IMG/VR virus record: IMGVR_UViG_3300008262_000476
Location: 1-23,060 of that record
Reading direction: 5' to 3' (one strand)
From: a virus
DNA: 23,060 bases
Below the pieces are notes generated by a model. The model ran no database searches. It saw only the letters and a list, made by a program, of their open reading frames with translations, and was not told where the DNA came from. This document shows, in pieces, positions 360 to 14,024 of the stretch (position 1 is the stretch's first letter; each line of letters begins with the position of its first letter). A program made the position numbers and the translations under genes.

Positions 360-1064
360 TTATGTATTGTTTTCAGAATTTTGAGATGTTCTTGTATATT
401 GATTGAAAGATTCAATGTCTCCTGCTAGTATAGATGCTGCACTGTCTACAAGTATTTCAGCAATATCATCTCTAAATTCACAAGCTACATCTGTTTGAGA
501 TATAACACCTGTGTAAGGATCACCGCAATCTAAAATTTTAATTTTAACTGGTTGTCTGTAGTATAACAAGCTGATACCGGTAATGTCAAAATCATTGTTA
601 GTATACACTTTTACTGTATTGTTAATCACAGTACAAAAAGTTTCACCCCACTCAAAGTTTGGTTTACGTAGTTCATCTCTTGTTAAAATGCTACTATTTT
701 GTTCTTCAGCAAGATATACAATTATATCTTTGGGATCAGTACAACATTCTTTAGTAGCTTTAATGTCTATTTTATGATACTCTAAATAGTTCTCAGGCAA
801 GGGAACAGTTTGATAAAAACCATCTGCCTTTGTAAAATTTAAATTTAGAGTTGTCAAAAGATTTTGAACATCATCAACTTTTCTAACAGTTTGCTCTGCA
901 CCGGCTCCATCTTGATTACGACCCATAATCTGCCTACGGCACCATTCAATTTGTGCCTTATTAAAAGCTTCTATTATCTGCCAGCATTCTATGTTGTCAT
1001 AGTCCTGACTAGCTAATTTGTTAAGCCTTTGCTGGATCTTTAATCTAAGTGTACTGTTTAACAT
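360..1064 (-). CDS. Putative head-tail adaptor or other conserved virion protein (234 aa)
   Basis: A 234-residue soluble protein with no membrane segment. The N-terminus (residues 1-45) is helical with a conserved-looking LRLKIQQRLNKLAS stretch and paired Cys/Trp residues (ECWQIIEAFNKAQIEWCRRQ). The middle is beta-rich, and the C-terminal helix (residues about 195-220) is acidic and reads like the closing helix of head-completion or tail-adaptor proteins. I recall similar proteins beside the head genes of Bacteroidota phages, but no catalytic motif is visible, so the adaptor role is inferred from position and overall shape. It starts 2 bases after the stop of the preceding basic protein and is followed 2 bases later by the DUF5856-type gene. 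Confidence 0.6.
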   Translation of the reverse strand: MLNSTLRLKIQQRLNKLASQDYDNIECWQIIEAFNKAQIEWCRRQIMGRNQDGAGAEQTVRKVDDVQNLLTTLNLNFTKADGFYQTVPLPENYLEYHKIDIKATKECCTDPKDIIVYLAEEQNSSILTRDELRKPNFEWGETFCTVINNTVKVYTNNDFDITGISLLYYRQPVKIKILDCGDPYTGVISQTDVACEFRDDIAEILVDSAASILAGDIESFNQYTRTSQNSENNT

Positions 1065-1066
1065 GT

Positions 1067-1303
1067 TTATCTACCGCATTGACCAATCTTTCTTCTTGCC
1101 CGATTGGTACGTTGTTGTTGTGTTTTACGGACATTTGCAGCATGTCTTGCCCCAGAACCTTGTGAACCCATCTTAGGTTTTTTAGGTTTATTCATATCTT
1201 CCATAGCACCATATCCAGATACTGGTTGGTTTTCTACATCACGTGACATAGAGGCACCCGTATAGAGACCTCCCATATCCATTTTGGGCATTTTATTTTT
1301 CAT
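1067..1303 (-). CDS. Small basic protein with Arg/Lys-rich tail (78 aa)
   Basis: I place the start at the ATG at 1303, giving 78 residues. The same frame stays open up to 1390, but that extension overlaps the end of the upstream 56-aa gene and looks like a shadow. The N-terminal half contains a Met/Gly-rich stretch (MDMGGLYTG). The C-terminal half is strongly basic (KTQQQRTNRARRKIGQCGR) and lacks acidic residues, as expected for a nucleic-acid-binding or internal virion peptide. The function is not recognised. It is the last member of the run of tiny genes between the head genes and the adaptor-like gene, with 19 bases from the previous stop and a 2-base gap to the next start. Confidence 0.6.
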   Translation of the reverse strand: MKNKMPKMDMGGLYTGASMSRDVENQPVSGYGAMEDMNKPKKPKMGSQGSGARHAANVRKTQQQRTNRARRKIGQCGR

Positions 1304-1322
1304 CACTTTGCTTGTTTGTTTT

Positions 1323-1493
1323 TTATTTTTTGGGTTTTGGAACAGCTTTGTTCCCTCCACCTTTGTATGGTGTTGCATTTTTTTGAGCACTATTTAGTTT
1401 AGCACTCTTTGTTGGACCAACACCCTTAGTACTTGGTCCTTCAACTTTTGCATTACCGTTTAGTTTTACATAAACACCAGCTGATTTTTTCAT
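1323..1493 (-). CDS. Small Lys/Gly-rich protein (56 aa)
   Basis: A 56-codon frame from an ATG at 1493 to TAA at 1323-1325, read directly from the minus strand. The protein is basic, with few hydrophobic residues: it begins MKKSAGVYVKLNGNAKVEG, has GVGPTKSAKLNSAQ in the middle, and ends in a Gly-rich, Lys/Pro-rich tail (YKGGGNKAVPKPKK). The GGG-N-K element resembles the GGxxKK signature of its neighbours. It fills the space exactly between the 48-aa and 78-aa genes in the same direction, which supports it being real. No known domain is recognised; a minor virion peptide is plausible from context. Confidence 0.6.
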   Translation of the reverse strand: MKKSAGVYVKLNGNAKVEGPSTKGVGPTKSAKLNSAQKNATPYKGGGNKAVPKPKK

Positions 1494-1511
1494 TTTATAT
1501 GAGTTTTAAAA

Positions 1512-1658
1512 TTATTTGTTTTTTGACATTTTCTTTAGTGTACGTGCAAGAGCCTTACGCTTAGGTGTACAAGTAGGTTTACTCATAGGTGTGCAATATC
1601 CTTTATGTTCAGGATTGATTGCTTTTTGAATCCACTTACTATCTTTTTTTGCAGCCAT
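1512..1658 (-). CDS. Small phage protein with WIQKAI motif (48 aa)
   Basis: A 48-codon frame from an ATG at 1658 to TAA at 1512-1514. It carries SKWIQKAI near the N-terminus, then a doubled Cys-Thr-Pro element (CTPMSKPTCTP), and a basic C-terminal helix (KRKALARTLKKMSKNK). Small proteins with a Lys-Trp-Ile-Gln-Lys-Ala-Ile start and an Arg-Leu-Lys-rich end recur in tailed phages, usually near structural genes, with no assigned function. The two Cys could bind metal or form a disulphide, which is inference. It starts 5 bases after the stop of the 97-aa gene. The recurrence of the motif elsewhere, from memory, makes me fairly sure it is a real gene. Confidence 0.72.
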   Translation of the reverse strand: MAAKKDSKWIQKAINPEHKGYCTPMSKPTCTPKRKALARTLKKMSKNK

Positions 1659-1663
1659 TACTT

Positions 1664-1957
1664 TTATTTTTTTACAGACCCACCTTTTTTCATTGTAGTT
1701 TTAGATTCAGCAGCTTTAGCTCTGTCTTTTAAGTTTTTAGCTCTTGTTTCTTGTCTGGCTGCTTGATTTAGTTTTTGACTAGCATATCCAACAGCATTAG
1801 ATGTTCCTGGATTTTTAGTCTCATCATAGTCTAAAGCTTTTTGAGCTTTACTCCAGTTCTTTTGAGCTCTACCCATTACTCTTTCAGCACGATTGTTTAA
1901 TCTTTCTGATTTTTTAGTAGGGCCTCCTGTAGATTTTTTTGAAAGATGACTGCTCAT
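1664..1957 (-). CDS. Basic helical protein with two GGxxKK elements (97 aa)
   Basis: Ninety-seven residues starting at an ATG that overlaps the stop of the previous gene as TAATG (1959-1955), so translation is probably coupled. The N-terminus has STGGPTKKSERL and the C-terminus ends MKKGGSVKK. Between them lies a long, highly charged helix rich in Arg, Lys, Ala and Gln (for example NNRAERVMGRAQKNWSKA). There are no membrane segments or catalytic motifs. The two copies of Gly-Gly-[Ser/Pro]-x-Lys-Lys link it to the 54-aa and 122-aa neighbours. The product is unknown; an internal or minor virion protein is plausible. Confidence 0.65.
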   Translation of the reverse strand: MSSHLSKKSTGGPTKKSERLNNRAERVMGRAQKNWSKAQKALDYDETKNPGTSNAVGYASQKLNQAARQETRAKNLKDRAKAAESKTTMKKGGSVKK

Positions 1958-2121
1958 TATTTTTTCTTTTTAATGGTTCCACCTGTTTTTTTAATTACAC
2001 CTCTGCCTTTAAGGATATCAGCACGTGTAACTTTACCATCACCGGTAAGGTCTGGAAATTTAGATCCACCTGTTTTATATTTTTTCATGGATCCACCACA
2101 AGACATACATTTACTTTTCAT
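1957..2121 (-). CDS. Small protein with dockerin/EF-hand-like loop and KTGG motifs (54 aa)
   Basis: A 54-codon frame from an ATG at 2121 to TAA at 1957-1959. Two Cys sit near the N-terminus (KCMSCGGSMKK). They are followed by YKTGGSKFPDLTGDGKVTR and then ADILKGRGVIKKTGGTIKKK. The segment DLTGDGKVTRAD (residues about 24-35) matches a 12-residue calcium loop with Asp at positions 1, 5 and 12, as in dockerins and EF-hands. I recall very similar short proteins in phages of Bacteroidota, with no assigned role. Three Gly-Gly-x-x-Lys elements flank the loop. It couples to the 97-aa gene through TAATG. Calcium binding and virion location are inference. Confidence 0.75.
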   Translation of the reverse strand: MKSKCMSCGGSMKKYKTGGSKFPDLTGDGKVTRADILKGRGVIKKTGGTIKKKK

Positions 2122-2138
2122 GATATTATTAATTTACG

Positions 2139-2387
2139 TTAACATTTCCATTTACGCAAAGCTTTGTTAATCCTGCTGTCTGGATCATTAGCTGTTTTGC
2201 TAGAAGTAAGTTTCTTCTTCATCCCAGACATTCTACTACAAAATGACTTCTTTCTAGAACCACCTTCAGGTTGTGGTGCTTTAAGGTTACCTCCTGTTTC
2301 TTTATTATAGGAAGCTCTACCCTTAGCGTTAAGTCCCCCACTAGGAGCCTTACCTTCTTTACGTTGCCACGCTGGTGTCTTTGCCAT
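2139..2387 (-). CDS. DUF6321-like small phage protein (82 aa)
   Basis: Eighty-two residues whose N-terminus MAKTPAWQRKEGKAPSGGLN, followed by AKGRASYNKETGGNLKAP and a later RKKSFCSRMSGMKKKL block (residues about 46-60), matches the layout of the DUF6321 family as I know it: AWQRK..G..PSGGLN, then a GGNLKAP element, then a SFC-R-M-GM element. Members are short phage proteins of unknown function. A Gly-Gly-Ser-x-Lys-Lys sequence (EGGSRKKSF) links it to its neighbours. The start overlaps the upstream stop as TAATG (2389-2385). The family match is from memory, so the name is likely but not verified. Confidence 0.75.
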   Translation of the reverse strand: MAKTPAWQRKEGKAPSGGLNAKGRASYNKETGGNLKAPQPEGGSRKKSFCSRMSGMKKKLTSSKTANDPDSRINKALRKWKC

Positions 2388-2755
2388 TATTTTTTCTTTT
2401 TCTTTACAGGACCGCCTGTTTTCTTGTTCTCCTTTTGCTGTTTTTTTACTTCATCATAATCAACTGTTCTTTTTCTTCCTGAGTTATCAAAAATGCCTTC
2501 TGAATATTGATACTCTCTTTTTCCAGTTTTCTTATCATATGTAGGAATAACTTCATTTACTAAATCATCTGTCCAGACAGTTTTAGGCAGTCTATTTGTT
2601 TTTGAATCAACACATTTAGATCCATCCCAAAAGTATCCTTTTGAGCATTCTGGAACAACTGTTTTTTTAGTTGATCCACCTGGGGCATATTTTTTTACAG
2701 GTGTAGTTGTTTTTGTGCGTGAGGTACTACTGGACTTTTTAACTATTTTTTTCAT
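2387..2755 (-). CDS. Lys-rich protein with C-x-G-x-W-x-G-x-C element and terminal GGPVKK (122 aa)
   Basis: A 122-residue basic protein. The N-terminal 35 residues are a Ser/Thr/Lys-rich, probably disordered leader that contains APGGSTKKT. Residues 37-48 hold a compact two-Cys element, CSKGYFWDGSKC, spaced like a small disulphide or metal knuckle. The C-terminus is Lys-rich and ends KKTGGPVKKKKK. The element resembles short Cys/aromatic motifs in extracellular proteins, but I do not recognise a named family. Its stop overlaps the start of the DUF6321-like gene (TAATG), showing both belong to one translational unit. A virion-associated role is inferred from the neighbourhood. Confidence 0.6.
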   Translation of the reverse strand: MKKIVKKSSSTSRTKTTTPVKKYAPGGSTKKTVVPECSKGYFWDGSKCVDSKTNRLPKTVWTDDLVNEVIPTYDKKTGKREYQYSEGIFDNSGRKRTVDYDEVKKQQKENKKTGGPVKKKKK

Positions 2756-2791
2756 TTTTATAAATTTAAAATTTCTATTTAGACGTTTTGT

Positions 2792-3004
2792 TTACTTTTT
2801 AGAGTTAGCAATTCCACCTAACATTTTAATTTGCTCCTGAGCAAGTTTCTTTACATCACCCATCATTTTAACATCCTTACGGATCTCATCTGCTCTACGT
2901 AATGTGTTCATAGCAGATTCTACTTCCCATTTACGCATTTCTGCTTTAGATGACATAGACACTGAAGGAGATGATTTCTTAGTGGTTGTTTTTTTAGCTG
3001 CCAT
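2792..3004 (-). CDS. Small basic helical protein (70 aa)
   Basis: Seventy residues: a Lys/Thr/Ser-rich leader (MAAKKTTTKKSSPSVSMSS) followed by a continuous amphipathic helix of about 45 residues (for example AEMRKWEVESAMNTLRRADE) ending GGIANSKK. There are no Cys and no membrane segment. The start ATG overlaps the previous stop as TAATG (3006-3002). The function is unknown. Its charge, size and position match the other small proteins of this run, though it lacks the full GGxxKK sequence. Confidence 0.6.
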   Translation of the reverse strand: MAAKKTTTKKSSPSVSMSSKAEMRKWEVESAMNTLRRADEIRKDVKMMGDVKKLAQEQIKMLGGIANSKK

Positions 3005-3159
3005 TATTTTTTGGTTTTAGACTTAATCTTTTTTTCCTGTTTTAACATTTCAGCAGTAGGTTTCTTACCAGAACCTTTATTAGCACGGATGTTATCCCAC
3101 AGCCCTCTTTGGCTGTAGGATCCATCTTTACGCTTTATCATTGGCTTTTTATTTGCCAT
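3004..3159 (-). CDS. Small conserved phage protein with GLWDNIRANKGSGKKP motif (51 aa)
   Basis: A 51-codon frame from an ATG at 3159 to TAA at 3004-3006, coupled to the next gene by TAATG. It contains KRKDGSYSQRGLWDNIRA followed by NKGSGKKPTAEMLKQEKKIK. The combination of GSYS.RGLWDNIRAN and GSGKKPT.EML recurs, as I recall, in small proteins of many phages near structural genes. No role is established. The Gly-Ser-Gly-Lys-Lys-Pro sequence looks superficially like a phosphate loop, but the protein is too small to be a P-loop enzyme, so I treat that as chance. Confidence 0.7.
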   Translation of the reverse strand: MANKKPMIKRKDGSYSQRGLWDNIRANKGSGKKPTAEMLKQEKKIKSKTKK

Positions 3160-3310
3160 AGTTATTTTCGTTTTTATAATTCAATAAAGACTTAGTTAAA
3201 TCAATAGCAGCATTCAAGGAAAGTCTTGTTGCTGCATTACTGTATTTAGCTGTCCCATTACCTTTTATGGTATTCTTATTATCAAAAGATTGATATAGCA
3301 TATTTCCCAT
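3149..3310 (-). CDS. Small hypothetical protein (53 aa)
   Basis: A 53-codon frame from an ATG at 3310 to TAA at 3149-3151, overlapping the next gene's start by 11 bases in another frame. The product (beginning MGNMLYQSFDNKNTIKGNG) is mildly basic, with a central helix-prone stretch rich in Ala, Asn and Leu. No motif is recognised. It is supported mainly by filling an otherwise empty 174-base gap in the same direction, with normal-looking codon use and start context. It is the first of the run of tiny genes after the 339-aa gene. Confidence 0.5.
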   Translation of the reverse strand: MGNMLYQSFDNKNTIKGNGTAKYSNAATRLSLNAAIDLTKSLLNYKNENNYGK

Positions 3311-3332: not shown

Positions 3333-4352
3333 TTACTCATTCCAATACTTTTCTGTTTTTTTAACCAGATCTTTAAGAACTTCCTCGTTAAGAGGGTTTT
3401 TAAGGAACTCAATTACATCAGAAGGATTTCTACCTAGCATTGTAGAAGAACCTAGATGATAAATAAAACCATCTGATTTTAGAGCAATAAACTTAAGATA
3501 CGTAGCATCTCTGATGATTGCTTTGATTTTAAGAGTTTCTAGATCTAGTTCTACAGCATCCAAGAAAGCTTGGGCAGCACGTGCAGCACTTTTCTCAGAA
3601 CCTTCTCCATTAATAAACATATCCATGTTATCATAAACAACATCATTTGGAGTGCTCTTTTTATATTGAATGCTATTGATATCTACAATCTTTGCTACAT
3701 ACATTAGCTTAGTAACATTCTTATCAAAAAGTTTCTGTAGTTCAGCAAGGGCTTTATTACGGATCTTTTTAACCTCTGTACGGGTGGTAGCTGTTTTTTC
3801 GTATTTATCTAAATAAAACTTAACAGGTGTTGGTCGTGAACGGGCATCCTCATAGCTCTTAGATACAATACTAAAGCCACCGGCTTCAATTGCATATAGT
3901 TTAATTAGATCATATGGATCTTTTACTGGCTCAAGATACAAAGGAGTATTACCACAACGAATTGTAATAGAACCCCAAAAGTCATCATTGTCAGGTCTAA
4001 GAAGCTTTACTTTATTCCAAAATTGAGGATCATCAATGTCAATAACATTGGCCGCCATTTCTTTTTCAAGTTCAGAAACAACAGTTCTGATTTCTTTGAT
4101 TTTAGCTGCTTTTTGGTCAGGATCTCTTATGAGTTTTACTTCTGGAGCAAATTCATTTAAGCCTGTTACGTATCTCTTGATACCGTTGTTTTCTATGCAT
4201 GTTAATTGTTCTTCATGAAATACACCTTCAAATAAAGAAAGTCCATATATTTCAAGACCCATGTTTGATATTGAATTATCAAAAAATGGTTTTATGGCAA
4301 CTGGTCCCGCTTTGGCACCGCCATACTCTACATGTAAAAATGTGTTACTCAT
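3333..4352 (-). CDS. Uncharacterised protein in the head gene block (339 aa)
   Basis: A 339-residue soluble protein with mixed helices and strands and no signal peptide or membrane segment. The N-terminus is beta-prone (FLHVEYGGAKAGPVAI). Residues about 85-100 form a charged helix (KAAKIKEIRTVVSELEKEM), and the C-terminal third holds LKSDGFIYHLGSSTMLGRNP. No catalytic motif is visible and I do not recognise the family. It sits 27 bases after the 153-aa gene and before the small basic proteins, all in one direction, so a virion or assembly role is a positional guess. Length and regular codon use leave little doubt it is a real gene. Confidence 0.6.
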   Translation of the reverse strand: MSNTFLHVEYGGAKAGPVAIKPFFDNSISNMGLEIYGLSLFEGVFHEEQLTCIENNGIKRYVTGLNEFAPEVKLIRDPDQKAAKIKEIRTVVSELEKEMAANVIDIDDPQFWNKVKLLRPDNDDFWGSITIRCGNTPLYLEPVKDPYDLIKLYAIEAGGFSIVSKSYEDARSRPTPVKFYLDKYEKTATTRTEVKKIRNKALAELQKLFDKNVTKLMYVAKIVDINSIQYKKSTPNDVVYDNMDMFINGEGSEKSAARAAQAFLDAVELDLETLKIKAIIRDATYLKFIALKSDGFIYHLGSSTMLGRNPSDVIEFLKNPLNEEVLKDLVKKTEKYWNE

Positions 4353-5213: not shown

Positions 5214-6176
5214 TTAGAATGATCCACCAGTGATTGGGTTTCTCATAACAATTTTCAAAACTTTGGTTGGGTCTTTTACCCAGATAGCAGGCATGGTTTG
5301 AGTCATGAATACACGGTAACCATTGAACTGTCCAGAAGACTGGAAGCCTTGGGTACGTCCCATGTAATCCATAGTACCATTCTGATACCACCATTTCAAT
5401 TGATTATCCCAAGACAATTTCAACAAGAAGATGTTGTCATTTGTGTTATCTGTGATATCAAAGATAATGAAGTTGTAAGAAGACAATGGGAAACCATCAA
5501 TGATTGGGTTTTCAATGTCATTGGTATGTACGTTGTCAAATGCTGGGTTCAATACAAACTTAACATTTGCCAAGAATGGGATCACATATGAAGTGAATGC
5601 AAATCCGAAGTTCAAATCCATTCCCTTACCAGTGATAGCACCGATACCATTGTTATCAGCAGCCATGATCTGAAGACCAGAGTTTACTGCCTCTTTCTTA
5701 ATGGCTTCATTAACCATACGCATACCACCCATACCGGTTTGTACAATCAATTGACGCTTAGGATCTGGACCCTTAAACTCAACCTTACCAGCATAGAAGT
5801 TGTAGATTTCAGAACGGAACAAATCCAAGTTGAAACCAGACTTGTTGTATACACGCTTGAATGAGTTATCAAGTTGTTTCCAAAGACCCACAGACAATCT
5901 TACATCATCTGGACCATCCTGACGTACTCTACCACCTTGTCCCCACATCAAGTAAGTTTCAATGTCACTTGCAACTTTACTCAAGTGAGCTGCTTCCATT
6001 GTGGTCAAGAAGGTACGTGAAAGTGAACCATTTGACATTGCTTTTTTAACATAATCCTTACCCATACGGCTAACCATGTTCTCAAGGTTAGTGATAGATG
6101 GATCCATGTTCTGGTCAAAGTTTCTCCAGATTTCAGTAACAGGTACAGTACCATCTGCATTCATACCACCAGCCAT
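5214..6176 (-). CDS. Major capsid protein, C-terminal part (frame differs from N-terminal part)
   Basis: This frame encodes the C-terminal two thirds (about 320 residues) of a probable HK97-fold major capsid protein, from MAGGMNADGTVPVTEIWRNF onward, ending NPITGGSF. The sequence is that of a well-maintained structural gene (for example GMGGMRMVNEAIKKEAVNSG). The frame stays open upstream to 6398, but there it overlaps convincing capsid sequence in the other frame, so I use the ATG at 6176 only as a marker. A shift of +1 (or loss of 3n+2 bases) relative to the N-terminal part lies between about 6180 and 6160. Whether this is programmed, a deletion or an assembly error cannot be decided here. 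Confidence 0.72.
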   Translation of the reverse strand: MAGGMNADGTVPVTEIWRNFDQNMDPSITNLENMVSRMGKDYVKKAMSNGSLSRTFLTTMEAAHLSKVASDIETYLMWGQGGRVRQDGPDDVRLSVGLWKQLDNSFKRVYNKSGFNLDLFRSEIYNFYAGKVEFKGPDPKRQLIVQTGMGGMRMVNEAIKKEAVNSGLQIMAADNNGIGAITGKGMDLNFGFAFTSYVIPFLANVKFVLNPAFDNVHTNDIENPIIDGFPLSSYNFIIFDITDNTNDNIFLLKLSWDNQLKWWYQNGTMDYMGRTQGFQSSGQFNGYRVFMTQTMPAIWVKDPTKVLKIVMRNPITGGSF

Positions 6177-6612
6177 CTCCAAGTGGAATGATGTCTTGAT
6201 CAGGAACAATGTACATTTCAACACCGTTGTACTTATCATAAGTGATGATATCACCATGACCAAATTCACGACGTGAAATTTTAAGTTTAAAAGTAGTACC
6301 ATCAATACCCTTTGTTTCATTATCAGACTCGATATCTGAAACAATGTAAGGAAGATCTTGTACAACTGGAGTTTGCCATTTGTACTCACCTCTTGCATTA
6401 TCGACCATAATTACATTCTTTCCACCAAAGCTAGACATTTGATAAAGAGGCATTTCTACTTTTTGAGCCATAGCCCACAAGTCCACTGGACCCATGTCCA
6501 TTGGTTCTGCATTCTTTAACATGTTTACCAAGTGGTAAGAATCTACGTGTGAACTAGCTGCGTAGTTGGTATCCCGTAGATATATACCATTATTTAAAAC
6601 TGGAGTTGACAT
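6133..6612 (-). CDS. Major capsid protein, N-terminal part, ending at a frame break
   Basis: Starting at the ATG at 6612, this frame reads as capsid sequence to about residue 147 (ending YIVPDQDIIPLGDG), then gives a short aberrant tail of twelve residues rich in Trp, Tyr and Cys before TGA. The capsid sequence resumes in the +1 frame at GGMNADG. Joined, the two parts give about 465 residues, close to or somewhat under the size usual for crAss-like capsid proteins. The gene lies directly after the scaffold-like gene and before a terminator, the expected place for the most highly expressed virion gene. Identity as the major capsid protein is inferred from order, size and composition. Confidence 0.72.
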   Translation of the reverse strand: MSTPVLNNGIYLRDTNYAASSHVDSYHLVNMLKNAEPMDMGPVDLWAMAQKVEMPLYQMSSFGGKNVIMVDNARGEYKWQTPVVQDLPYIVSDIESDNETKGIDGTTFKLKISRREFGHGDIITYDKYNGVEMYIVPDQDIIPLGDGWWYECRWYCTCY

Positions 6613-10742: not shown

Positions 10743-13700
10743 TTATTTTAAATTTCTAAATGGCTGTTTAGGAATTCTCATTGTATCATTCTTTGAGCCA
10801 CTTCCTCCTAAATTACGAAAAGGGCTCTTAGTTAATTTACTGAATTTATTTGAGTTATCCAATTTTTTAGCTAGATCTGTTTCCTCATAACGCTTTTTGT
10901 AACCCCTATTAGCTTGCTGAACTTTTGCAAAAGCTATAAGTGCTGCAAAGCTAACTAGTCTATCCACGTTAACACCATCTCTGTAGGCTATCATTTCTTT
11001 TAATAGCATAGGATCTGGTATTCTTTCAACACCATATTTTGTCCTTACTACTTTTCCTTCAGAGGTAACATCATGATCCAGTTCTTCCTTAAGATATTCA
11101 ATTGCATAACTTAGCATATGACTCTTAAACAAAGTACCGGTGTTTCTCCATCCATAGTCTTGATATACATTGGCATTAGCACCAATATCTTTAAGGAAAA
11201 GAATCTGAGATCTAGGTACTAGATACTTTTGTTTCTTTCTGTAAATCATATAGTTAATGAACTGGCTAATGTTGTTTTCCACAATAGTCCAGGCATTATA
11301 CCATTCAATTATCATCTCTAATCTCTCATGAGTTTTATTGATATCATCAAATCTACCACACCAGGCAGCTACTATTTTATCAGATTCTACATAAGTCTCA
11401 ATCTCAGAACCATTATTTTTAGTTACCTCTACTGCTGTTTTATATACATATATAGAACATAGAGATTCTGATGTTGTTGTATTATGTGTAACTAAAGCAT
11501 GTTCAGTAACATAAAGATTATCAGGTGCATCAACTGATATACATACAGCTTCTGCATCATCTACGTATTCTATGTTTGTTATATATCTACTAAATACTTT
11601 TGATGGTCTATAAATTTTTCTTTTTCTTGTTAATATAAAAGGATTAAGATATTCAGGTAATAAGACTCTTACAATATAAGAATCTAAATGAGTTGTTTTT
11701 TTACATCTTATTTTTGCTATTCCCCCTAATGATTGAACTAATTCAACAACTTGATAAGCTAATCTTTTTGATGATGAATAAAATTCTGCTCCATGATTTG
11801 AATAAGAACCATCTGTATCCATTAACCCTTGTAATAAAGATAATCTACTAGACCCCATTGCATACATGTATTCTTGAGGTATAAATTTATCTTCAGATCT
11901 TTTACCTTTTAAACCTAATTCTTTTAATCTTTTAGTTAATGAATTTCTTAAACCAACTTTTGTAACAATTGAGTAATCACAATTTGAATTTTTAACCTTT
12001 TTTATTAATAAGTCATCTTCTAAAATATGCTCAATAGAATTAATTAACTCTGTATCAACTGTACTAAATCTAATAGACTTTTGTGATAAGCCACCATCAC
12101 CTAATAGCAAACCTAATAAATAGGGATTGATAGGTAATCTTTTACCAGAATCAAAACCAATAGGTTTAACTATTGGTATTGACCATTTATTTCTATTTTG
12201 CTTATCTTTATAATAAGGGGAAACTATATATTCTTTTTTACTATTTCTACCTGTTCCATTATAAGTAATTGTTTTAGTATTGTCTAGTAAATCTTTTACA
12301 GAAAGTGTAATATATCCTTTTGTTCCACCATTTAGTTTTACATCCCATAAGTGATCTTCACATACTTTAATACTATGTCCATCACTGAATGTTATACTAC
12401 ACATTTTTTTAATTCCTTGTGGATAAACACCTATTACATTAATAGCTCCTCCATCAGATCCTATAACCTTATCTCCAATTTTAATATCGCCTATTCTTTT
12501 TCTACCTTCTGGTGTATATAACATATTATCAACATGTTCAGCCTTACCTTCTCCAACAGGGTCAACAGATGCATAATAGGTAAGAAACTCTGCATTTTTA
12601 TCAGGTCTTTCCCATACAACCAAAACACCTGTTTTATCCTCTGTATTTTTTGATATGGGGAATTCAATGATAGGAAGCTTGTTAGTTGTCTCTACAGCAA
12701 CTTCTCCTTTAGCATTCCTGTAAATATCAAGGAACTCATATGGATATTCTTTCTCTTCTATCCTTTGATTTTGAGCTGATATAAGATGTCCTGGAAAAAG
12801 AGAAACACTTCTAAAATCAAATGCTTCCTTTACATTACGAGGATGCTGTGATATACGGAGTTGATATTCCTGGGGGTCTAGTTTCTGCTTCCAATCAGCA
12901 AATTGTATATCTAGTGCTTCCAAAGCTTCTTCTACTTTAGAATTACCATACTTATCTACATAGGGTGGCATAGACCACTGCTCAGGAATGAATAAACCGG
13001 TTGTTCCAATTGTACCTTTATCATCTATAAGATCTGAAAACACTGCATATATATCATTGTCTTCAGGGTGCATGATCAGCTTTTTTAAAGGATCACATTG
13101 ACTGAGATCACCCACAGAACCTGCTGCTATGAATGTACCTGTAGTAATCATACCTGATCTAAGTGCCGGTCTTAGGTACTCATAGGTCTGATTCATCTTA
13201 GGGGCAATACCAGCCTCCTCATGGAAGAAGTATTTAGTAGGACCACCGACACCGGTAGTAGGACTTTTCTCAAATGACATAGCCTGGATCACACCCTTGA
13301 GACCTAATTCACTTTTTCTTTTTTGACCACCTACAAAATTTACAATCTCAATCTTTTGTTGCCAGAACATTGCTTTGTCTGGATTCATAGGTCTATACCA
13401 AGCAGTATGTTTGTTTAGAAATGACTCATATTCATTAAGGAATTTCCAGCTACCCTTCTCATTGATATAGTCTTTGAGACTAGCTCCCATCTTTAGGGTA
13501 ACCCCTTCCTCAAACCATATCTGGTTTATAAGCTTTCCACAATGAAAGTATGAGCTAGCAATCTGACGTTTCTTTAAAATAGCACAGTGTTTATAGTCAA
13601 GCTCTGCTAAGATTTCATACAGAGCCATATGATACTGTGCATCCCTTACATCAGCAAAGCCGTACTTTTGTATTTCTTTGTTAAAAATAGGAAGGAAATT

Positions 13701-14024
13701 TAACCACATATAATAATCCCTGGTTATATACCAGGTTTTATCATTTGATTTGTATATAACACCTTTCCTACATTTCTCTTTTTCTGTATCCCAGAACTTT
13801 ATGAAATCTTTAGTACCTGATGGTGCTATACAGTAAAGTCCATTCTTGTCAAAGAGTTTAGCCTGTTCATTAAATTTCTCAGATACTTCATCAAATTCAT
13901 ATCTCCCAGGTTCTTTGAAAATAGATTTACAGAACTCATAAAAGTCTTTTCTGCTTTCAAAGTCCGTATAACTCCATTCTCCATTTTCATAGGTGGGAAT
14001 ATGTTGATAGATTTCAGTATTCAT
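10743..14024 (-). CDS. terL: Terminase large subunit interrupted by an intein (1093 aa precursor, about 739 aa spliced)
   Basis: The DNA-packaging motor. The N-terminal ATPase domain carries a Walker A-like KKRQIASSYFHCGK (residues 151-164) and Walker B KYFFHEEAG with adjacent Glu269/Glu270. The RNase H-like nuclease domain begins at YYASVDPVGEGK, where Asp488 is the expected first metal ligand. Immediately after Lys494 a 354-residue intein (residues 495-848) is inserted, and the extein resumes at TTTSESLCSIYVYK. Removal gives about 739 residues, normal for this family. The frame is uninterrupted through both junctions. The gene overlaps the PhoH-like gene by 11 bases and lies 1 base from the portal gene. 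Unspliced protein should lack nuclease activity because the insertion disrupts the first motif. Confidence 0.93.
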   Translation of the reverse strand: MNTEIYQHIPTYENGEWSYTDFESRKDFYEFCKSIFKEPGRYEFDEVSEKFNEQAKLFDKNGLYCIAPSGTKDFIKFWDTEKEKCRKGVIYKSNDKTWYITRDYYMWLNFLPIFNKEIQKYGFADVRDAQYHMALYEILAELDYKHCAILKKRQIASSYFHCGKLINQIWFEEGVTLKMGASLKDYINEKGSWKFLNEYESFLNKHTAWYRPMNPDKAMFWQQKIEIVNFVGGQKRKSELGLKGVIQAMSFEKSPTTGVGGPTKYFFHEEAGIAPKMNQTYEYLRPALRSGMITTGTFIAAGSVGDLSQCDPLKKLIMHPEDNDIYAVFSDLIDDKGTIGTTGLFIPEQWSMPPYVDKYGNSKVEEALEALDIQFADWKQKLDPQEYQLRISQHPRNVKEAFDFRSVSLFPGHLISAQNQRIEEKEYPYEFLDIYRNAKGEVAVETTNKLPIIEFPISKNTEDKTGVLVVWERPDKNAEFLTYYASVDPVGEGKAEHVDNMLYTPEGRKRIGDIKIGDKVIGSDGGAINVIGVYPQGIKKMCSITFSDGHSIKVCEDHLWDVKLNGGTKGYITLSVKDLLDNTKTITYNGTGRNSKKEYIVSPYYKDKQNRNKWSIPIVKPIGFDSGKRLPINPYLLGLLLGDGGLSQKSIRFSTVDTELINSIEHILEDDLLIKKVKNSNCDYSIVTKVGLRNSLTKRLKELGLKGKRSEDKFIPQEYMYAMGSSRLSLLQGLMDTDGSYSNHGAEFYSSSKRLAYQVVELVQSLGGIAKIRCKKTTHLDSYIVRVLLPEYLNPFILTRKRKIYRPSKVFSRYITNIEYVDDAEAVCISVDAPDNLYVTEHALVTHNTTTSESLCSIYVYKTAVEVTKNNGSEIETYVESDKIVAAWCGRFDDINKTHERLEMIIEWYNAWTIVENNISQFINYMIYRKKQKYLVPRSQILFLKDIGANANVYQDYGWRNTGTLFKSHMLSYAIEYLKEELDHDVTSEGKVVRTKYGVERIPDPMLLKEMIAYRDGVNVDRLVSFAALIAFAKVQQANRGYKKRYEETDLAKKLDNSNKFSKLTKSPFRNLGGSGSKNDTMRIPKQPFRNLK
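11481..12542 (-). mobile_element. Intein with LAGLIDADG-type homing endonuclease, class 3 (WCT) features
   Basis: This is a 354-residue in-frame intein. It starts with Ala1 (AEHVDNMLYTPEGRKRIGDI), has block B with HLWDV (His64, Trp66), two LAGLIDADG-like helices (YLLGLLLGDGG near 12090-12124 and LLQGLMDTDG near 11805-11841), block F with Cys334 in AVCISVDAPDNLYV, and ends VTHN followed by extein Thr. Ala1 together with the Trp66/Cys334/Thr352 triplet is the signature of class 3 inteins, in which the block F Cys starts splicing. Both endonuclease helices keep their acidic residues, so homing may still be active. The segment looks richer in A+T than the flanking terminase: 11 G/C in 11881-11940 against 24 in 13141-13200, counted by eye. 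Confidence 0.9.

Follow-up and report, generated by a model that had tools for sequence, protein, structure and literature searches.

A 23,060-base record of an uncultured viral contig (IMGVR_UViG_3300008262_000476; hereafter the window), assigned to the crAss-like phages by its Crass_capsid and adaptor matches, carries an array of ten co-directional, minus-strand open reading frames (ORFs; s1–s10, positions 1067–3310). The array lies between the adaptor gene and a head-module gene of 339 amino acids (aa), termed 'aux'. With a probability of about 0.55, we interpret it as a cassette, optional and exchangeable, that encodes basic peptides of the virion interior, packed and delivered with the phage DNA. 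Such a cassette would most likely work like the internal proteins (IPs) of phage T4 without belonging to that family. A place inside the virion is inferred from the fusion of s2 and s5 modules to known or predicted head-interior proteins elsewhere. An earlier note on this DNA had likewise proposed peptides inside the virion that are delivered along with the DNA; this gains independent support from s2 modules within crassvirus cargo protein 1 (CARG1) proteins and from the s5 module behind T4-type leaders and junctions.

An optional array under selection

The array proteins are 48–122 aa long, with isoelectric points of 9.6–10.8 and net charges of +9 to +19 in all but s1, and some share a GGxxKK motif. 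The earlier description of ten co-directional small basic genes of 48–122 residues, half of them under 60 codons, was accurate: nine proteins are strongly basic and five genes are that short. Nine of the ten have orthologues under purifying selection, so the ORFs are real genes rather than artefacts. The ratio of nonsynonymous to synonymous substitution rates (dN/dS) was 0.05–0.17 for s2, s3, s5 and s8, 0.22–0.34 for s1, s7, s9 and s10, and 0.15–0.24 for s6, with one exceptional pair at 0.77. No orthologue of s4 was found in the five relatives compared.

Our comparison set comprised 80 syntenic relatives from viral contigs, 68 of them with both flanking genes visible. The flanking genes were 6–61 bp apart in 32 of these, ~200 bp in five, 0.4–0.7 kb in four and 1.1–4.3 kb in 27, and array gene content was mixed and matched among relatives. 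The array is therefore an optional cassette. It is also absent from Cellulophaga phage phi4:1 and from csAssE-Sib, where the gene at the 'aux' position abuts the adaptor gene.

Content and length that vary from 0 to 4.3 kb could also mark a hypervariable insertion hotspot between head genes, holding genes with no common function and a motif spread by recombination between neighbours. Genes resembling homing endonucleases (by eye, of GIY-YIG and HNH type) do occur in the array island at L095:3776–4396, L099:7025–7513 and L102:9692–10198, and recombination could swap C-terminal tags. We nevertheless consider this explanation improbable: small basic genes predominate, dN/dS is low, and the s2, s5, s6 and s8 families recur together, also outside this phage group. 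DUF6321, the family of s5, lay within 4 kb of s2 in 53 of 80 loci and within 4 kb of s6 in 57 of 80. Structural genes of this group were present at only 13 of the s2 loci and 23 of the s6 loci, and both modules are found in many phages that lack them.

Modules of s2 and s5 in other phages

The s2 profile aligned with the GLYANIHAKR module of T4-like phages (hhalign probability 82, score 29.9, against at most 12.3 in 40 column shuffles), which identifies s2, at the profile level, as a distant relative of that module. The GLYANIHAKR module is also present in crAss arrays (E 1e-16). A small GLYANIHAKR protein adjoins DUF6321 in P-SCSP1c and Jormungand, and PHROG 11180 holds a GLYANI module and DUF6321 within one protein.

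Two crAss_CARG1 proteins contain the s2 module (loci L334 and L350). One, of 1618 aa, carries s2 at residues 1091–1135 and crAss_CARG1 at 1156–1282, plus a glucosaminidase domain; the other has 1368 aa. The cargo protein gp45 of phi-crAss001 is found in the virion, with residues 425–552 portal-bound inside the capsid (PMC10172136). The s2 module also ends a 1832-aa protein of an array-less relative, G012. This genome additionally encodes a homologue of the DNA-dependent RNA polymerase of PDB entry 6vr4, which we take to be the virion RNA polymerase of crAss-like phage phi14:2; the two genes are adjacent only if the contig is circular. A further G012 gene (L277:4148–6595) encodes an 815-aa protein with a weak, sub-threshold EndoU-like match. 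Proteins of 550–700 aa at L288:3998–5641 and L297:3986–6097 begin with s2 and end with KARHAKNIAKGKSSAAYWANKVKW, and appear to be strings of small modules.

The s5 protein is a member of DUF6321, scoring 80.6 bits against a Pfam gathering cut-off of 28.5 over profile positions 1–72 of 72. This family, with its invariant Cys pair (SFC...WxC), occurs in 528 annotated phage records, mainly from cyano- and pelagiphages; a full-text literature search for DUF6321 found no paper. Its genes are located in the head modules of unrelated phages: P-SCSP1c has one between the capsid and tail-tube genes, Jormungand between those for scaffold and capsid, and P-HM2 between its two terminase genes.

DUF6321 forms the C-terminal part of larger proteins in marine T4-like phages. 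Many of these begin like the T4 capsid-targeting leader (e.g. MKTYSQFIEE and MKSYSEFISE, against MKTYQEFIAE of T4 IPII and IPIII, taken from NC_000866), and P-SSM7_194 has the start MKTYSQFIEE together with a GLWDNI module and DUF6321. Leader-like starts were seen in 25 of 69 DUF6321 proteins and 15 of 286 control ORFs. Of 52 distinct junctions before DUF6321, 45 had a Glu no more than three residues away (background 0.21) and 29 had [ILVMF]xE (background 0.06). Both statistics draw on related sequences, so that the counts are not independent events, which weakens the case for packaging. The gp21 prohead protease cleaves at L/I-x-E. Within the T4 leader, residues 4 and 7 matter for targeting and 8 and 10 for processing (PMC9026906). 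Cleavage at the prohead-protease-type junction, predicted for these T4-like relatives of s5 and s2, would yield a fragment equivalent to the stand-alone protein.

Two ART-PolyVal proteins of ~1220 aa (L017:2569–6240 and L025:2578–6234) also end in DUF6321; packaging and injection have been predicted for the polyvalent proteins of phages (Iyer et al. 2017, PMC5512222). The CYxKVK module of another array (L131) is fused upstream of DUF6321 in cyanophage proteins. DUF6321 neighbours in cyanophages (L169:2742–3068 and L170:2722–3060) bear the T4-like leaders MKSYKQFMSES or MKSYNEFISES. Homology comparison gave no support for two other links, one between s4 and the CxxGxYYC module found in cyanophage proteins, the other between array proteins and the LRDWF module. 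The earlier view that the array proteins share no other sequence is correct for the window itself, although several of them fall into module families that are widespread.

The GGxxKK tag

The window array contains seven copies of GGxxKK. Shuffling the residues within each protein gave 0.28 copies on average and never more than five in 20,000 trials; the shuffle mean for GG[STP]xKK was 0.06. All seven copies listed in the earlier note are present, but in four proteins rather than in separate members (two each in s4, s6 and s7, one in s5). That note also placed the motif often exactly at the C-terminus: three copies are C-terminal (s4, s6 and s7), and only s7 ends at KK. In s5 the copy (EGGSRKK) falls within the conserved DUF6321 body and is distinct from the C-terminal tag.

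A search of small ORFs in relatives, which the note had proposed, gave a tenfold enrichment, with 35 copies against 3.5 expected in 116 non-redundant array proteins. Of these copies, 26 lie within 10 residues of the C-terminus; the first x is mostly S or T, the second mostly V, and two-residue spacing is the peak. The C-terminal tag was found on 20 of 73 clusters built with termini trimmed, and thus spreads over unrelated sequences. (An initial clustering that united 67 array proteins reflected low-complexity chaining and was discarded.) In two whole genomes with an array, GGxxKK proteins were encoded inside it in 4/4 and 2/3 cases, and none was found among the ~137 predicted genes of each of two array-less whole genomes. 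The shared tag is real, and composition does not account for it.

Bacteroidota use an A-rich leader in place of a Shine-Dalgarno site, and lysine codons could provide one for an abutting gene. Of 126 genes that adjoin the start of the following gene, 83 had at least three Lys among their last five residues, against 15 of 42 others (p 0.001); a C-terminal GG tag was present in 26 of the 126 and 1 of the 42 (p 0.003). Part of the C-terminal lysine signal is therefore suggested to serve the downstream start codon. That the tag is itself partly such a nucleotide effect is the least probable of the explanations considered here, since this leaves unexplained both the internal motif copies and the Gly-Gly, which is encoded by nine different codon pairs ~20 nucleotides upstream of the next start. 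Variable codons and the wrong distance likewise rule out a Shine-Dalgarno-like DNA signal. We found nothing in support of the tag as a cleavage site after Gly-Gly, for which no candidate protease was sought in detail, or of the tag itself as a capsid-targeting element. Most likely it serves as a flexible DNA-binding or packaging tail.

Evidence on presence in virions

Several observations weigh against packaging in the head. No array protein has been detected in any virion to date, and no experiment places one in particles. The DUF6321 protein S-SZBM1_192 is missing among the 30 proteins detected in S-SZBM1 virions, where its neighbours 190 and 195 were detected, although its mostly very short tryptic peptides temper this result. 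All ten window proteins lack a T4-type leader, most starting MAKK/MKK/MAAKK-like, and domain searches found no CARG1 domain (PF25725) in array proteins. At this site, 32 array-less relatives manage without the cassette. Most array families (s3 and s7–s10) are tied to virion proteins by position only; their basic charge and, in s7, the tag complete the case for them. The predicted DUF6321 structure is of modest confidence (predicted local distance difference test score 78, predicted template modelling score 0.47) and matched no PDB fold at E ≤ 0.001.

P-SCSP1u carries a DUF6321 and GLYANI gene pair next to its major capsid gene, and its icosahedral shell consists of major capsid protein alone. 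This argues against an ordered shell role and is compatible with an unordered internal one. The DUF6321 protein T4-GC119 is called merely hypothetical in the main text of PMC3037559. Beside the DUF6321 cluster of S-SZBM1, the 87-aa S-SZBM1_195 (L166:25377–25640) has the third highest exponentially modified protein abundance index in the virions.

The lack of any detection in particles, the missing S-SZBM1_192 and the capsid-only shell of P-SCSP1u would also suit late non-virion proteins with a role in the infected cell, for example as regulators that bind nucleic acids or as helpers of assembly, with the head-gene location reflecting late expression only. We regard this as unlikely, although it is the strongest rival to virion-internal peptides. 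An s2 module within cargo-protein-1 homologues is hard to fit with cytoplasmic proteins, as are capsid-targeting leaders on DUF6321 proteins.

Genes of the window

Features of the array and its flanking genes are collected in Table 1. The assignment of the window draws on its major capsid protein (Pfam Crass_capsid, E 1.8e-23) and on the adaptor protein, which matches structural proteins of Cellulophaga phages verified by mass spectrometry (MS) and the ring protein of csAssE-Sib. The adaptor is a homologue of phi4:1 gp062, annotated as structural from tandem MS, and 'aux' occupies the position of phi4:1 gp063. The 'aux' protein had no match in Pfam, PHROG or PDB searches; its identity was 100% in one syntenic relative and 99% in another. 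No near relative of the window was found among the annotated phages searched.

Table 1. Array genes and flanking genes in the window.
Feature	Coordinates	Strand	Support
Adaptor/ring protein, closes array	360..1064	-	PHROG virion structural protein, E 6.7e-11
s10, 78 aa	1067..1303	-	homologue starts; dN/dS 0.26
s9, 56 aa	1323..1493	-	dN/dS 0.22-0.34
s8, 48 aa, WIQKAINP..CTPKRKALA family	1512..1658	-	dN/dS 0.05-0.10; 80 loci
s7, 97 aa; GGPTKK and C-terminal GGSVKK	1664..1957	-	cluster of 4, C-terminal tag in all
s6, 54 aa; dockerin-like PDLTGDGKVTRADIL loop; GGSMKK and C-terminal GGTIKKKK	1957..2121	-	80 loci, stand-alone and fused
s5, 82 aa, DUF6321 (PF19846)	2139..2387	-	Pfam E 1.3e-22; dN/dS 0.06-0.17
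s4, 122 aa; GGSTKK and C-terminal GGPVKKKKK	2387..2755	-	ORF, motif
s3, 70 aa	2792..3004	-	13 loci; dN/dS 0.10-0.11
s2, 51 aa, GLWDNI module	3004..3159	-	18 arrays; dN/dS 0.05-0.12
s1, 53 aa, weakly basic (+4)	3149..3310	-	dN/dS 0.26-0.28; family of 8 loci
'aux', 339-aa head-module gene, upstream of array	3333..4352	-	syntenic in 80 relatives

Sub-threshold matches linked s4 to DUF5874 (E 5e-4) and s6 to Dockerin_1 (E 0.09). No relatives of s6 and s8 were found among annotated phages; 'aux' lies within 4 kb at 76 of 80 s8 loci. An upstream GTG-started ORF extends s10 to 1390, and the start at 1303 is probably the right one because homologues begin MK[NS]KMPK.

The major capsid gene (5214–6612) is broken across two frames, with the junction near 6170. 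Two close relatives, one of them 100% identical on both sides, hold ~230 extra bases there, and the split therefore looks like an assembly gap in the window. The large terminase gene (10743–14024) carries a LAGLIDADG/Hint-type insert, probably an intein.

Proposed mechanism and comparison with known systems

On the virion-internal reading, array proteins would be packed in the phage head alongside the DNA and released with it into the host. Their lysines would bind and neutralize the packed DNA, and once in the host, individual members might affect the cell or shield the DNA. The C-terminal GG[ST]xKK(K) could provide a flexible hinge and a lysine tail for DNA contact or co-packaging. More broadly, we tentatively suggest, at well under even odds, that unrelated aquatic phages share exchangeable capsid-internal microprotein modules. 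T4-like phages would load them as polyproteins with a leader, which the prohead protease cuts, and crassviruses as cargo-protein-1 fusions or as separate genes; for separate genes, the C-terminal GG[ST]xKKK tail would replace the leader as common packaging element. DUF6321, present in more than 500 phage records, has no known function; a capsid-interior link makes its function testable in cultured phages, and would show that a single pool of injected peptides is exchanged among crassviruses and marine phages of the T4-like and T7-like kinds.

One close parallel is with T4 IPI, IPII and IPIII, which carry a capsid-targeting sequence and are processed by gp21. On this reading both systems would comprise variable sets of small basic proteins, dispensable or semi-essential, that enter the host along with the DNA; the DUF6321/GLYANI modules of marine T4-like phages bear T4-type leaders. 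The crAss array proteins differ in having neither leader nor xxE junction, and no sequence similarity of mature parts to T4 IPs has been demonstrated. None of the ten window proteins starts with a capsid-targeting sequence of the T4 kind, whose marks are aromatic residues 4 and 7 and an L/I-x-E cleavage site. Lacking a leader and a CARG1 domain, they fall outside both the T4 IP and CARG1 families. Crassvirus cargo protein 1 (PF25725, phi-crAss001 gp45) is nevertheless connected through the s2 modules embedded in two CARG1 proteins, once directly before CARG1, whereas the array proteins stand alone. Polyvalent ART-PolyVal proteins can carry DUF6321 as C-terminal domain, as at L017 and L025, but comprise several domains, including enzymatic ones; each array member is one small module that holds no more than one known domain and none that is enzymatic. 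With the DUF6321 proteins of cyano- and pelagiphages (PF19846), s5 shares full family membership; what sets it apart is that it is a stand-alone protein in the GGxxKK-rich cassette of a crAss-like phage.

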